This document shows, in pieces, positions 7,115-55,256 of a DNA stretch of 64,000 nucleotides. Origin of the DNA: Burkholderiaceae bacterium (lineage in GTDB: Bacteria > Pseudomonadota > Gammaproteobacteria > Burkholderiales > Burkholderiaceae_E); assembly GCA_021166725.1 (NCBI GenBank), contig JAJPES010000052.1:1-64000 (forward strand). Direction: 5' to 3'. The notes beneath the pieces are model-generated. The model made no database searches. It saw only the letters and a program-made list of their open reading frames with translations, and was not told the DNA's origin. How positions within the stretch are numbered: the stretch's first letter is position 1; the number at the start of each line of letters is the position of its first letter. The translations under genes were made by a program, and so were the position numbers.

Positions 7115-7807
7115 TCATCGACGGTACTGGCGCTCGCCGAACAGCACTTCTTGCGCCTTCTCGTCCATCGTCGGCTTGCGCCGGTCGGCCAGCACGGTGA
7201 TCGCGCGCTGCACGGCCGGACGTTCGGCGATCGTCTCGAACCATCGCTGCACGTTCGGGTAGTCGTCCAGCGCCACGCCCTGGTTAGCGTGCGACCGGAT
7301 CCATGGCCAGGTCGCGATGTCGGCGATCGAATATTCGCCAGCCGCCAGCCAGTCACCGGTGGCGGCAAGGCGCCGATCGAGCACTCCGTACAGCCGCTTC
7401 GCCTCGTTCGTGTAGCGTTCGATGCCGTAGGCGATCTTCTGCGGCGCGTAGTTGCGGAAGTGGTGTGCCTGCCCGAGCATCGGCCCGACGCCGCCCATCT
7501 GGAACATCAGCCACTGCAGCACTTCGTACTTTCCACGGGTGTCTTGCGGCAGGAAACGGCCGGTCTTCGCGGCCAGATAGACGAGGATCGCGCCCGACTC
7601 GAACAGCGGGATGGGCTCGCCGCCGGGGCCTTCGTCGTCGACGATCGCCGGGATCTTGTTGTTCGGGCTGATCGCGAGGAAGTCGGGCGAGAACTGGTCG
7701 CCGGCGGAGATGTCGATCGCGTGCACCGCGTAGGGCAGTTCGCACTCCTCGAGCAGGATGTGGACCTTGTGGCCGTTGGGCGTCGGCCAGCTGTAGAGGT
7801 CGATCAT
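7115..7807 (-). CDS. Glutathione S-transferase family (YfcG/YghU-like) protein
   Basis: 230-aa protein with an N-terminal thioredoxin fold and a helical GST C-terminus. The motif WPTPNGHKV puts Thr9 and Asn11 where E. coli YfcG uses them to bind glutathione; no active-site Cys is present. The NKIPAIVD cis-Pro loop and the ESGAI glutathione gamma-Glu site are clear. It is the last gene of a leftward operon (hydroxyacyl-CoA dehydrogenase, enoyl-CoA hydratase, phosphotransferase, GST), and its ATG overlaps the previous stop by 4 bp. YfcG-type proteins are disulfide-bond oxidoreductases; the substrate here is unknown. Confidence 0.88.
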   Translation of the reverse strand: MIDLYSWPTPNGHKVHILLEECELPYAVHAIDISAGDQFSPDFLAISPNNKIPAIVDDEGPGGEPIPLFESGAILVYLAAKTGRFLPQDTRGKYEVLQWLMFQMGGVGPMLGQAHHFRNYAPQKIAYGIERYTNEAKRLYGVLDRRLAATGDWLAAGEYSIADIATWPWIRSHANQGVALDDYPNVQRWFETIAERPAVQRAITVLADRRKPTMDEKAQEVLFGERQYRR

Positions 7808-8886
7808 CCCTTGACTCCCTGCGCGATGCGCCAGCCGAGTTCGGCGAGCGGGCGCGCCCGGCGTCCGGCATCGACGGCCTTCGCGTTCGATGCGGTGCCC
7901 TCGACGGCGCGCTTCATGATGCCCTGCAGGATCGCGGCCAGCCGAAACAGGTTGTACGCAAGGTAGAAATCCCAGTACTCGAGTACGCGCGACGGGTCGC
8001 GTCCGGTGCGCTGGCAGTAGCGTTCGACGTAGTCGCGCTCGGCCGGGATGCCGAGCGCGGCGTGATCGAGGCCGGCGATTCCGCGGAACTGCCCCGGCTC
8101 GATGTGCCAGGCCATGCAGTGGTAGGAGAAGTCGGCCAACGGGTGGCCGAGCGTGGACAGTTCCCAGTCGAGGATCGCGCGAATGCGCGGCGCCTGCGCG
8201 TCGAAGACGAGGTTGTCGAGGCGGAAGTCGCCGTGCACGATCGATGTCTCGTCACCGGGCGGAAGATGCGCCGGCAGCCATTCGATCAGCCGGTTCATCG
8301 CCTCGATCGCTTCGGTCTCCGATGCCTGGTACTGGCTGCTCCAGCGCGCGATCTGGCGCGCGAAGTAGTTGCCGGGCCGGCCGAAGCCGCCGAGTCCGAT
8401 CGCCTCGGGGTCGATCGAGTGCAGTGCGGCGATCACGCGGTTCATTTCGTCGTAGATCGCAGCGCGCTCGTCGCGGGTGGACTGCGGCAGCGACTGGTCC
8501 CACAACACGCGACCGTCGACGTGCTCCATCACGTAGAACGCGCGGCCGATCACCGCTTCGTTCTCGCACAGGGCGTGAACGCGCGGCACCGGCAGGTCGG
8601 TGCGCGCAAGCGCTTCCAGCACGCGGAACTCGCGCTCGATGGCGTGCGCGGACGGCAACAGGCGGGCCGCCGGGGCGGGCTTCGAGCGCATCACGTAGCG
8701 CGCCGCGGGTGTCGTCAGCAGGTAGGTCGGGTTCGACTGGCCTCCGCGGAACAACTCGACCTCGAGCGGACCGGCGTAGCCTTCGACGTGCGCGGCGAGC
8801 CAGCGTCCGAGCGACTCGACGTCGACGCGAAGCCGCTCGGGCACGGTCGTCGTGCCAACGTTCTCGTTCTCGCCGCTGGCGCTCAT
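7804..8886 (-). CDS. APH/ACAD10-like phosphotransferase family protein
   Basis: 360-aa kinase-fold protein related to aminoglycoside phosphotransferases and to the N-terminal domain of ACAD10/11. The Brenner-type catalytic loop HGDFRLDNLVFD is followed by the metal-binding ILDWELS. In ACAD10/11 this domain phosphorylates 4-hydroxyacyl groups, so with an enoyl-CoA hydratase and hydroxyacyl-CoA dehydrogenase upstream a role in acyl-CoA catabolism is more likely than antibiotic resistance. The ATG at 8886 has GAGGAGG 7 bases upstream; longer in-frame versions lack this. Confidence 0.85.
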   Translation of the reverse strand: MSASGENENVGTTTVPERLRVDVESLGRWLAAHVEGYAGPLEVELFRGGQSNPTYLLTTPAARYVMRSKPAPAARLLPSAHAIEREFRVLEALARTDLPVPRVHALCENEAVIGRAFYVMEHVDGRVLWDQSLPQSTRDERAAIYDEMNRVIAALHSIDPEAIGLGGFGRPGNYFARQIARWSSQYQASETEAIEAMNRLIEWLPAHLPPGDETSIVHGDFRLDNLVFDAQAPRIRAILDWELSTLGHPLADFSYHCMAWHIEPGQFRGIAGLDHAALGIPAERDYVERYCQRTGRDPSRVLEYWDFYLAYNLFRLAAILQGIMKRAVEGTASNAKAVDAGRRARPLAELGWRIAQGVKG

Positions 8887-33417: not shown

Positions 33418-34215
33418 GTGTCAAACCTCACGTCGCCCGCTACGATGATTCCTGTATCGAGCACCACGATCACCGTGCCGCGTTCGCGCGACGTGCCGCG
33501 CCACGTCGCGATCATCATGGACGGCAACGGGCGCTGGGCCACGCAGCGGCGGCTGCCGCGCGTGGCCGGCCATGCCAGGGGCGTCGAGGCGGTGCGCGCC
33601 ACCGTCGAGGCATGCGCGAAGCGCGGCGTCGAGTTCCTCACGCTGTTCGCGTTCAGTTCCGAGAACTGGCGCCGCCCGGCCGACGAGGTGTCGCTCCTGA
33701 TGCGGCTGTTCGTCACCGCGCTCGAGCGCGAGGTCGCCCAGTTGCGCGCCAACGGCATCCGCCTGCGCGTCGTCGGCGATCTTTCGGCCTTCGAGCCGCG
33801 CCTGCGCAAGCTGATCACCCACGCCGAGACGCGAACCGCGGCGAACCGGCGGCTGACGCTGACCATTGCGGCCAACTACGGCGGGCGCTGGGACATCCTG
33901 CAGGCCATGCAGTCGATGCTGCGCGCACAACCCGAGCTCGCCGACGACCCCGACCGCATCGGCGAGCAGGCGCTGTCGCCGCACCTGGCGCTCGCCTATG
34001 CGCCGGAGCCCGACCTGTTCGTGCGCACCGGCGGCGAGCAGCGCATCAGCAATTTCCTGTTGTGGCAGCTCGCCTATACCGAGCTGTACTTCACCGACAC
34101 GTTCTGGCCCGACTTCGATGCCGCGGCGCTCGATTGCGCGATCGAATCGTTCCGGCGACGCGAGCGCCGCTTCGGCCGCACGAGCGAGCAGGTTTCTGCC
34201 GCCGAAGCGGGCTGA
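33418..34215 (+). CDS. uppS: Undecaprenyl diphosphate synthase (cis-prenyltransferase)
   Basis: Makes C55 undecaprenyl diphosphate, the lipid carrier for peptidoglycan and O-antigen; up to 265 aa. The motif [13 protein letters not shown] carries the catalytic Asp; FSSENWRRP and the C-terminal [15 protein letters not shown] are diagnostic. The start is uncertain: GTG 33,418 (13 bp after frr) or ATG 33,445. Its TGA stop is directly followed by a truncated copy of the palindromic element described at 40,520. Confidence 0.95.
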
Positions 34216-34244
34216 GAAGCTGTGAACGAATCCGTCCTGCCCGC
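34216..34244. repeat. Truncated copy of the 159-bp stop-codon-linked element
   Basis: The 29 bases after the uppS stop match the left end of the element at 40,520 at 27 of 29 positions (GAAGC, GTGAACGAATCCGTC, TGCCCGC). The match then ends abruptly. As in the complete copies it begins exactly at the base after a TGA stop codon. Confidence 0.75.
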
Positions 34245-34270
34245 GTCGCGCTGAGCCTCAGGTCGCGTCG

Positions 34271-35092
34271 ATGCTCGGCAAGCGAGTCGCCACCGCCCTG
34301 GTGCTGCTGGCGATCCTGTTGCCGCCGATCTTCTTCTTCGACGCGTGGGTCTGGGGCGCCGTCACGCTCGTCTTCCTTGCCGTGGCGACCTGGGAATGGG
34401 CGCGGCTGGTCGCCGGCGTGCGCGCCGCGGCCGGCGCGGCGGCCGGGCTCGCGGTCGCCGGGGCAGCGCTGCTCGCCTGGCGCGAGACCGCCGGTTGGCC
34501 GGCGTCCTTCGTCCTTGCCGTGTGCGCGGCTGCCACCGTCGCCTGGCTGTGGCTCGGCCCGACCCACTTGCGCGCGCACGATGCGCGGCGTGGCGGCCTG
34601 GCGCTGGCCGCAGGCTGGCTGCTCGCCTGCTGGGTCGCGCTGGTTGCGTTGCGGGCGATCGGCCCGCTGGCGCTGCTCGCCGCGATGGCGATCGTCTGGG
34701 TGGCCGACATCGCCGCCTATTTCGCCGGCCGTGCGTTCGGCCGGCGCAAGCTCGCACCTTCGATCAGCCCGGGCAAGAGTCGCGAAGGCGCGCTCGGCGG
34801 TTTCGTCGCCGTGGCCGTGCTCGGACTGCTCGCCGCGTCGAGCCCGTCGCTGTCGTCGACGTTGCCGGCGCGACTGGTCGACGCCTGGGGTGCGCCGGCG
34901 GCCGTCGTGGTGCTCGTCGCGCTTGCCGCGTTGTCGATCGTCGGCGACCTGCACGAGTCGCTGCTCAAGCGCCAGGCGGGTGTGAAGGACAGCGGCACGG
35001 TGCTGCCCGGCCATGGCGGCGTGCTCGATCGCATCGACGCGCTCGTTCCCGTGATGCCTGCCGCCATGCTGCTGCATCGGCTGCTGGGATAA
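34271..35092 (+). CDS. cdsA: Phosphatidate cytidylyltransferase (CDP-diglyceride synthase)
   Basis: 273-aa inner-membrane enzyme making CDP-diacylglycerol for all phospholipids. There are about seven hydrophobic segments. The C-terminal CDP-diglyceride synthetase signature spans [10 protein letters not shown] to [18 protein letters not shown] and [12 protein letters not shown], with the metal-binding acidic residues in place. Its start follows the truncated repeat after uppS. Confidence 0.96.
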
Positions 35093-40519: not shown

Positions 40520-40678
40520 GAAGCCGTGAACGAATCCGTCATGCCCGCTCGTTCCGCGCAGGCGCGCCCACTCCGCGTTGCAAATGCTCGCCGTAGCCCG
40601 AGCTACGGCTGCGCTTTGCGCCTTGATTGGGCGTGCCTCGGCGGCCCGCCCGGGCACGGCGGATTCATTCACAGCTTC
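40520..40678. mobile_element. 159-bp palindromic MITE-like element, copy 1
   Basis: It lies between skp and lpxD. The left end GAAGCCGTGAACGAATCCG and right end CGGATTCATTCACAGCTTC are inverted repeats with 2 mismatches in 19. Inside are TGCCCG/CGGGCA arms, a GGCGCGCCCA/TGGGCGTGCC pair, and a central hairpin CCGTAGC-ccga-GCTACGG. It is flanked by TGA on both sides; the left TGA is the skp stop. A same-length relative lies at 53,491-53,649. There is no coding capacity beyond a short incidental frame. Confidence 0.75.
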
Positions 40679-51317: not shown

Positions 51318-53490
<2,173 letters not shown>

Positions 53491-53649
53491 GAACGTGTGA
53501 AGCAATCGTCCATGCCCGTCCTGCACGCCGTAGCGCGCCCGCTCTTCGTTGCAAATGCTCGCCGTATCGTCCGATACGGCTGCGCTTTGCGCCTCGACAG
53601 GACGCGTTCAGACGTGCCTTCCGGGCACGGCCGATTGCTTCACACGTTC
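53491..53649. mobile_element. 159-bp palindromic MITE-like element, copy 2
   Basis: It lies between guaB and guaA and is exactly as long as the copy at 40,520-40,678. The terminal inverted repeats are perfect over 18 bp: GAACGTGTGAAGCAATCG and CGATTGCTTCACACGTTC. The central hairpin is CCGTATC-gtcc-GATACGG, and TGCCCG/CGGGCA arms are kept. TGA flanks both ends (left, the guaB stop; right, 53,650-53,652). The transcript between guaB and guaA would contain a very long stem. Confidence 0.8.
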
Positions 53650-53675
53650 TGAGGCGCCGACCGAACGGACACGAG

Positions 53676-55256
53676 ATGCACGACCGGATCCTCATTCTCG
53701 ATTTCGGCTCGCAGTTCACGCAGCTGATCGCGCGGCGCATTCGCGAAGCGAACGTCTACTGCGAAATCCACCCCTGCGACGTCGACGACGCGTTCGTGCG
53801 CGGGTTCGCGCCGAAAGGCATCGTGCTGTCGGGCAGCCACCTGTCGGCGCACGAGACGTCGAACGACCGCGCTCCCGATGCCGTGTTCACGCTCGGCGTG
53901 CCGCTGCTGGGCATCTGCTACGGCATGCAGACGATGGCGCAGCAGCTCGGCGGTCGCGTCGCGAGCGGCTCGCCGCGCGAATACGGCTACGCGCAGGTGC
54001 GCGCGCGCGGACACACGAAGCTGCTCGACGGCATCGAGGACTTGCGCAATCCCGAGGGCCACGGCCTGCTCGAAGTGTGGATGAGCCACGGCGACAAGGT
54101 GGTCGAGCTGCCGCCCGGCTTCCGCACGATGGGCTCCACCGCGTCGTGTCCGATCGCGGCGATGGCCGACGAGGAGCGCCGCTTCTACGGCGTGCAGTTC
54201 CACCCGGAGGTCACGCACACGAAGCAGGGCACGAAGATCCTGCGCCGCTTCGTGCTCGACATCTGCGGCTGCAACGGCGACTGGGTCATGGCCCGGCATA
54301 TCGACGAGGCCGTCGAGTCGATCCGTCGCATGGTCGGCGACGAGGAGGTGATCCTCGGACTGTCGGGCGGCGTCGATTCGAGCGTCGCTGCAGCACTCAT
54401 CCATCGCGCGATCGGCGAGCGACTGCACTGCGTGTTCGTCGACACCGGACTGCTGCGACTGGGCGAAGCCGAGCAGGTGATCGATACCTTCGGTCGGCAC
54501 ATGGGCGTGCATCTGGTACACGCCGAGGCCGCCGGGCGTTTCCTGGGGAAGCTCGCCGGTGTCGCGGAGCCGGAGGCCAAGCGCAAGATCATCGGCCGGG
54601 AATTCGTCGAGGTGTTCCAGGCGCAGGCCGCGGAGATGCCGAACGCGAAGTGGCTTGCGCAGGGGACGATCTACCCCGACGTCATCGAGTCGGCCGGCGC
54701 CGGCTCGAAAAAGGCAGCCGTCATCAAGTCGCACCACAACGTCGGCGGCCTGCCCGAGACGCTGCACCTGAAGCTGCTCGAGCCGCTGCGCGACCTGTTC
54801 AAGGACGAAGTGCGCGAGCTGGGCCTTGCGCTCGGGCTGCCGCGCGAGATGGTCTATCGCCATCCGTTCCCCGGACCCGGCCTCGGCGTGCGCGTGCTCG
54901 GCGAAGTGCGACCCGAGTACCTGGGGATGCTGCGCGAGGCCGACGCGATCTTCATCGACGAGTTGCGCAACACGCATGACCTCGACGGACTGAGCTGGTA
55001 CGAGAAGACCTCGCAGGCCTTCGTCGTGTTCCTGCCGGTGAAGTCGGTCGGCGTGATGGGCGACGCGCGCACCTACGAATACGTGGTTGCCTTGCGTGCC
55101 GTGCAGACGCAGGATTTCATGACCGCACAGTGGGCGCCGCTGCCGCACGACCTGCTCGCGCGCGTGTCGAACCGCATCATCAACGAGGTGCGGGGAATCA
55201 ATCGGGTGGTGTACGACGTTTCGGGGAAGCCGCCGGCGACGATCGAGTGGGAGTAG
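53676..55256 (+). CDS. guaA: GMP synthase (glutamine-hydrolysing)
   Basis: Converts XMP to GMP; 526 aa. An N-terminal class I glutamine amidotransferase domain has Cys81 in GICYGMQ and the His/Glu pair in QFHPEVTHT. The ATP-pyrophosphatase P-loop is LSGGVDSSV, and the C-terminal dimerisation domain ends PATIEWE. The last codons (ATC GAG TGG GAG TAG) are a classical integration site for genomic islands, and accessory DNA starts right after the stop. Confidence 0.98.
55241..55256 (+). other. Candidate attL at the guaA 3' end
   Basis: GATCGAGTGGGAGTAG covers the last codons of guaA. A related sequence GATTGAGTGGGAATGA at 62,543-62,558 matches at 12 of the first 14 bases and would encode the same I-E-W-E-stop. 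The two bracket about 7.3 kb of atypical DNA that includes conjugative-element genes. Confidence 0.55.

Follow-up and report, generated by a model that had tools for sequence, protein, structure and literature searches.

MITEs of the ERIC/RU-1 and Correia/NEMIS kinds, and similar bacterial elements, are palindromic, hairpin-forming and non-autonomous sequences of 100–170 bp that occupy intergenic positions and, as far as we are aware, insert at TA, not at TGA. Another class of short palindromic repeats often found near gene ends, REP sequences and REPINs, is moved by RAYTs; REPs measure 20–40 nt, have a GTAG foot, rely on a Y1 transposase and leave no target duplication. The element described here, which lies between guaB and guaA of a Burkholderiaceae bacterium, resembles the former in size, palindromic form, intergenic position, hairpin formation and lack of autonomy, and the latter in its position near a gene end. 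However, its ends and its target differ from those of ERIC/RU-1 and Correia/NEMIS, and long terminal inverted repeats together with a TGA duplication set it apart from REP/REPIN sequences, as does the lack of a GTAG at the foot of its core.

The IS1182 family of insertion sequences (NF033551) stands closer, an IS1182-type element matching the right end of the element over 24 bp. Most of the IS1182-family relatives seen have CTNAG flanks, and these insertion sequences differ from the element in that it has no coding sequence. One member of the family, IS1272 of staphylococci, has been reported to replace inverted-repeat targets without producing target duplications (PMC5678879). IS1272 and the element have in common an unusual choice of target and, through the likely partner of the element, the transposase family, whereas the element shows a TGA duplication at CTGAG.

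A palindromic element behind the guaB stop codon

In the window, that is, the whole 64-kb stretch of DNA analysed, the element occupies positions 53491–53649 of the forward strand as an imperfect palindrome with the ends GAACGTGTG...CACACGTTC, a delimitation based on its sequence, its copies in the same genome and its fold. It lies between the guaB stop codon (53488–53490) and the guaA start at 53676. The 18-bp terminal inverted repeats, at 53491–53508 on the forward strand and 53632–53649 on the reverse strand, are perfect (GAACGTGTGAAGCAATCG / CGATTGCTTCACACGTTC). The guaB stop codon is itself the left TGA of a 3-bp target duplication (context CTGAG, 53487–53491) and the right TGA lies at 53650–53652 (context CTGAG, 53649–53653), so that CTGAG appears as a direct repeat on the left and on the right. 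A second copy (40520–40678, forward strand) is located right behind the stop codon of skp; it has the same 159-bp length, is about 75% identical and is flanked by CTGAG on either side, and its two ends mismatch at 2 of 18 positions. Both copies contain the same core hairpin, at 53547–53601 (80.8 bits with the covariance model R1) and at 40576–40630 (80.5 bits), both on the forward strand, which is common to MITEs with other ends. An earlier reading of this DNA, made from the letters alone and referred to below as the sequence-only reading, had described a near-palindrome of 159 bp with perfect terminal repeats starting at the base after the guaB stop, TGA on both flanks and a copy of equal length after skp, and the sequence agrees with each of these points. 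A further stretch at 34212–34255 (forward strand) consists of a left end behind a TGA stop followed by a second CTGAG at 34251. Its upstream neighbour is the gene at 33445–34215, in our reading uppS, whose stop it follows; the next gene lies at 34271. The stretch is what remains of a family member after an internal deletion.

The element is not a chance arrangement of letters, as indicated by three lines of evidence. The pattern of its ends, allowing up to three mismatches, is found at five positions of the window, where 0.18 would be expected; its predicted RNA fold has −90.2 kcal/mol, compared with a mean of −54.4 for shuffled sequences (z −9.4); and it recurs at 11 places in its own genome, besides fragments. 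This genome (3.57 Mb in 88 contigs, 89% complete) was searched at the DNA level on both strands, which returned 52 rows. At each of the 11 places, 158 or more of the 167 bases in the query are matched; two large partial matches and fragments come next. One fragment (L023, C27:71261) consists of two family ends that form a palindrome of some 50 bp, without arms or core. A search of 61 genomes with an E threshold of 0.001 gave matches in 17 (the own genome included), in several through the central part alone; 16 of these genomes are from the same family, and G060 is from a different family of the order. The relative G012 contains 13 copies that are 85–87% identical to the query and whose ends are nearly identical among themselves, a sign of a recent burst. 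The element thus has the attributes of a MITE: it is short (159 bp), has 18-bp terminal inverted repeats and no transposase gene, and is present in many dispersed copies both in its own genome and across the 61 genomes. The proposal of a small non-autonomous transposable element holds, given the 11 near-full-length copies in the own genome and the empty sites in relatives described below.

A different explanation is that the sequence is a regulatory or structural intergenic repeat, such as a terminator or an RNA-stability hairpin, that is selected at gene ends and was mobile only formerly. Its very stable fold (about −90 kcal/mol, z −9.4) and the compensatory changes in the core hairpin would suit such a role, but the 13 very similar copies of G012 sit at different places, presence and absence vary among close relatives and the element is positioned within the guaB–guaA gene pair. 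Scans for promoters and terminators at the site of the element returned neither, and the element has no T-rich terminator tail. No Rfam family matched between 53450 and 53700 up to E 1, and at gathering scores the only Rfam matches in the whole window were two tRNAs. We regard this explanation as very improbable.

CTGAG target, TGA duplication and the association with stop codons

The flanks were analysed in a set of 65 copies, 53 from eight relatives and 12 from the own genome, which represents the best matches selected and not all copies present there; L013, in which the core was not found, was excluded and the small fragments L014–L025 were not classed. TGA is present on both sides in 52 of the 65 copies. 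In these 52, the inner base next to the left TGA is G (50 copies) or A (two) and the outer base C (47), G (four) or T (one); next to the right TGA, the inner base is C in all 52 and the outer base G (47), C (three) or A (two). Since the inner bases are fixed and the outer ones variable, the duplication comprises 3 bp (TGA), the outer C and G belong to the context of the target, and CTGAG is the preferred target. The other 13 copies do not have TGA on both sides, being mutated, truncated or rearranged.

Sites free of the element provided direct evidence of the duplication. The guaB–guaA gap was read in 29 other genomes, none of which has the element, and 13 of the 16 gaps from the same genus are 7–13 bp long. 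In G012, the closest relative judged by guaB (93% identity across the query), the empty gap, gccgatTGAGGGGCCGG..., contains a single TGA; the sequence-only reading had proposed this comparison as a check. Further empty sites were sought by joining the flanks of ten insertions and searching the relatives with them; five of the ten gave no spanning match. The other five were the skp insertion (empty in G012), L009 (in G010 and G003), L011 (in G010 and G012), and L074 and L084 (both in the own genome). In all seven comparisons counted, the junction of the empty site has one TGA and the filled site two, and the empty pentamer is CTGAG in four of the seven and CTGAT, TTGAG and TTGAT in the remainder. 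The element-less skp site of G010 (L333) reads CTGAGAAGCGGTGAGG, with a second TGA within a stretch resembling the left end of the element; it probably represents what is left of the left end after excision or deletion of a copy and was kept out of the count. Mobility is therefore seen as presence and absence between relatives, and the single TGA in the guaB gap of G012 and at five other loci upholds the claim that insertion creates a 3-bp TGA duplication and keeps the upstream stop codon intact.

One association is not explained by a simple 3-bp duplication. A left TAA goes together with a right TGAC in three copies (L126–L128), 3/3 against 3/62 (p = 5e-4). The loci L343 and L344 also have TAA on the left and TGAC on the right, and L373, with TAA on the left and TGC on the right, breaks the rule, so that five of the six cases noticed follow it. 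At L344 (in G272), a core-less palindrome of about 45 bp, TAAGAACGTGTTTACGATC...GATCGTAAACACGTTCTAAG, is placed directly upstream of the core-bearing element, and the TAA is shared between the two.

The orientation of the element relative to CTGAG looks fixed, although this pentamer is symmetric save for its middle base. When copies are oriented by the core, the 52 with TGA on both sides contrast with 0 of 65 with TCA on both sides; among the 13 others, L121 has TCA on the left and L130 has TCA on the right only. This fixed orientation is also found in copies away from stop codons, which means that it follows the strand of the target and not the gene. Among full insertion sequences of the related type, the six copies in G005 all agree in orientation (6/6), with the transposase pointing the opposite way relative to TGA. 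The left ends of the insertion sequence in G031 have CTCAG in 12 of 12 cases, with a search pattern that was able to show CTGAG too. Its right ends have CTGAG in 8 of 8 cases and do not amount to a test of orientation, because the pattern was blind to CTCAG there. In contrast to the single orientation of the element, four relatives from Rhizobium and Bradyrhizobium occur in both orientations (L186 and L189 versus L187 and L188).

The location of so many copies behind stop codons raises the question of what is being recognised. A test by coding score places the beginning of 47 of the 65 copies at a coding-frame stop; the other 18 are elsewhere. The copies at stops number 11 of 12 in the own genome, 10 of 13 in G012, 9 of 13 in G005, 2 of 6 in G009, 2 of 2 in G014, 2 of 2 in G015, 1 of 1 in G017, 8 of 13 in G022 and 2 of 3 in G023. 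This high share would be expected if the transposition complex recognised translation termination or gene ends beyond CTGAG itself. Such recognition would also agree with the G031 right ends, where the upstream frame ending in TGA is open for at least 100 codons in six of eight cases, and with plasmid 4 of Variovorax sp. WDL1, in which an acyl-CoA dehydrogenase gene is followed, right behind its annotated stop codon, by an element with CTGAG on both flanks.

The background for comparison was obtained from one genome, using contigs C1 and C22 of G012 (771,582 bp, 652 genes predicted with our own gene caller, which classed 91.0% and 92.5% of the two contigs as coding). CTGAG occurs there at 370 sites on both strands, 240 within genes, 76 at gene stops (that is, at the stop of 76 of the 652 called genes) and 54 in intergenic positions. 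After removal of the occupied sites, 72 of the free non-coding sites are at stops and 48 are intergenic, so that about 60% are already gene ends. Compared with all free CTGAG sites, the copies are in excess at stops (p = 4e-16 for all copies, 3e-5 for G012). Compared with the free non-coding sites, there is no significant excess (47/65 versus 72:48, Fisher p = 0.11 for all copies; 10/13, p = 0.37 for G012 alone), and insertions at stops do not significantly exceed what target and tolerance predict. Moreover, CTGAG copies away from stops have the same orientation as those at stops, and on our own reading full relatives lie inside reading frames: L185 in a frame that we read as encoding an EAL domain and, among the six G005 copies, L167 in a frame and L169 probably so. 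Recognition of gene ends is accordingly an unlikely explanation. The association with stop codons is real, yet it needs no stop-codon recognition, as it can be explained by the target sequence together with a probable loss of insertions inside genes. The suggestion that stop codons as such are targeted is therefore not sustained: the target is CTGAG, 18 of the 65 copies are off stops, relatives reside within frames and the background is about 60%. On balance, the interpretation given by the sequence-only reading is supported in part.

Ends in common with IS1182-type insertion sequences

The identity of the ends points to the enzyme that may move the element. Positions 53630–53653, 24 bp including the flank, coincide base for base (24/24) with an insertion-sequence end in G031, the Burkholderiales MAG LacPavin_0818_WC40_MAG_72_27, which belongs to the same family as the own genome. 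Twelve contig ends of G031 carry the end that matches the last 24 bp of the query and eight carry the opposite end. The insertion sequence is broken by the assembly and 62 transposase residues could be read, which by themselves match no Pfam family; its placement in IS1182 goes through relatives. The start of the G031 transposase is 44% identical to that of L182, from a Lysobacteraceae MAG, whose transposase matches NF033551 with E 1.8e-106 and contains the domains PF05598 (DUF772) and PF01609 (DDE). The transposase of L185 is 61% identical to that of L182. CTCAG stands on either side of L182, whose right end coincides exactly with the stop of an opposite-strand ORF (7618–8346). In G005, six complete relatives of about 1.65 kb have CTGAG on both sides and the ends AGCCTGTGAATTTTTC...GAAAAGTTCACGAACT, and one MITE subfamily of the same genome starts with GAGCCTGTGAAAG. 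Another IS1182-family insertion sequence (L187), on a plasmid of Bradyrhizobium sp. CB82, is inserted between groES and groEL. An IS5 parent and an origin in Xanthomonadaceae were considered at first and rejected, since the transposase is of the IS1182 family and the relatives are Burkholderiales.

No autonomous partner turned up in the same genome: a search for PF05598 was negative there (completeness 89%), as it was in G023, so that the partner of the element may be lost, unassembled or located elsewhere in the cell. PF05598 matches are present in G012, G009 and G022, and several in G031 and G005, but none of the ends of the element was found in the stretches scanned.

The element is an IS1182-type MITE. 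As a whole, the evidence makes it highly probable that it is mobilised in trans by a DDE transposase of the IS1182 family, with orientation-specific insertion into CTGAG and duplication of TGA. In this model, which for the trans step builds on the identity of the ends, the transposase would probably recognise the 18-bp ends and act in trans. Insertion into CTGAG with a 3-bp stagger would duplicate TGA to give C TGA [G....C] TGA G, with the same end of the element always facing the TGA strand of the target. Where CTGAG contains the stop codon of a gene, the left TGA would restore that stop and leave the protein unchanged. Insertions within genes would mostly be lost by selection, and purifying selection may thus be the cause of the clustering of the surviving copies at gene ends. 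The statement of the sequence-only reading that no named family behaves in this way was too strong, as the likely mobilising enzyme belongs to the named IS1182 family; among the publications listed by literature searches, none showed the CTGAG/TGA target behaviour or the core hairpin.

The core hairpin in MITEs with other ends

The central 55 nt of the element (53547–53601) recur in elements with other ends, already within the own genome (L014, L016 and L025). Twenty distinct cores were chosen by hand and aligned, with the predicted structure of one of them as the guide; 98.5% of the cells are paired, and five pairs, each in the upper stem, differ in both partners. The covariation score of the core is 0.230, compared with 0.103 in shuffled alignments and at most 0.057 in slid controls. 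The covariance model R1 has matches in 67 of 399 Burkholderiales genomes and 41 of 158 genera, the E-values being rough. Plasmids of Cupriavidus, Mitsuaria and Variovorax also contain the core, and core-bearing palindromes were observed on two IMG/VR contigs classed as viral (L421 and L422), one of which has two.

Among 78 loci that were read (L342–L419), 69 have an enclosing inverted repeat, by a criterion of our own applied with no control for chance. Eight of the 78 lack an enclosing repeat, and most of these look by eye like family members whose arms are imperfect or absent; in L371 no core was found by pattern. When 18 hand-picked representatives were aligned on the core, the information content was 1.2–1.9 bits at most core positions and mostly 0–0.5 bits in the arms. 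Because the loci were found through the core, its conservation is partly by construction, and the news lies in the unlike arms. A comparison of 17 termini, from which L353 and L401 were omitted on account of unclear outer ends and to which a second TGA terminus was added, yielded at least nine groups at a similarity reached by about 0.1% of pairs of shuffled ends. The TGA ends form a loose group with two ends of the CTAG type, and some groups of termini are weakly alike. In the insertion sequences of the IS1182 type that were tested, by contrast with the element, no match to the core was convincing (best score 15.1 bits, and 19.7 bits in the flank of L189).

These results could mean that the hairpin is the real unit, being passed between MITEs with different ends or inserting into their centre. 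The presence of one core in MITEs of at least nine groups of termini and in 67 of 399 Burkholderiales genomes, its compensatory base changes and the failure to detect it convincingly in those related insertion sequences that were tested all argue for such a unit. Nevertheless, no clear free-standing core was seen, most loci having the enclosing repeat as judged by our own uncontrolled criterion, and we know of no enzyme for the hairpin. The partly built-in conservation weakens the case as well, and gradual change of the ends from common descent would look similar, given that some groups of termini are weakly alike. This possibility is therefore doubtful, though of some weight. Slightly better placed, and still tentative, is the broader proposal that the core is a structured module acquired by Burkholderiales MITEs with different ends, hence probably with different transposases. 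Such a module would either supply a function common to non-autonomous elements or spread between MITEs as a parasite of parasites, and its carrier here also inserts in an orientation-specific manner into a 5-bp target.

The fixed orientation and the common core are features that a specialist would not expect and go beyond an ordinary MITE. A fixed orientation in a nearly symmetric pentamer is a testable puzzle for the biochemistry of DDE transposases. In a GC-rich genome, CTGAG outside genes is found mostly at stop codons and the duplication restores the stop, which explains the ability of a transposon to insert between paired genes like guaB and guaA without harm to the upstream protein. If the core is a common module, it may serve as a binding site for a host protein or an enzyme needed for mobility or tolerance. 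The common core suggests that one module underlies many MITE families, a point relevant to how MITEs originate and are maintained.
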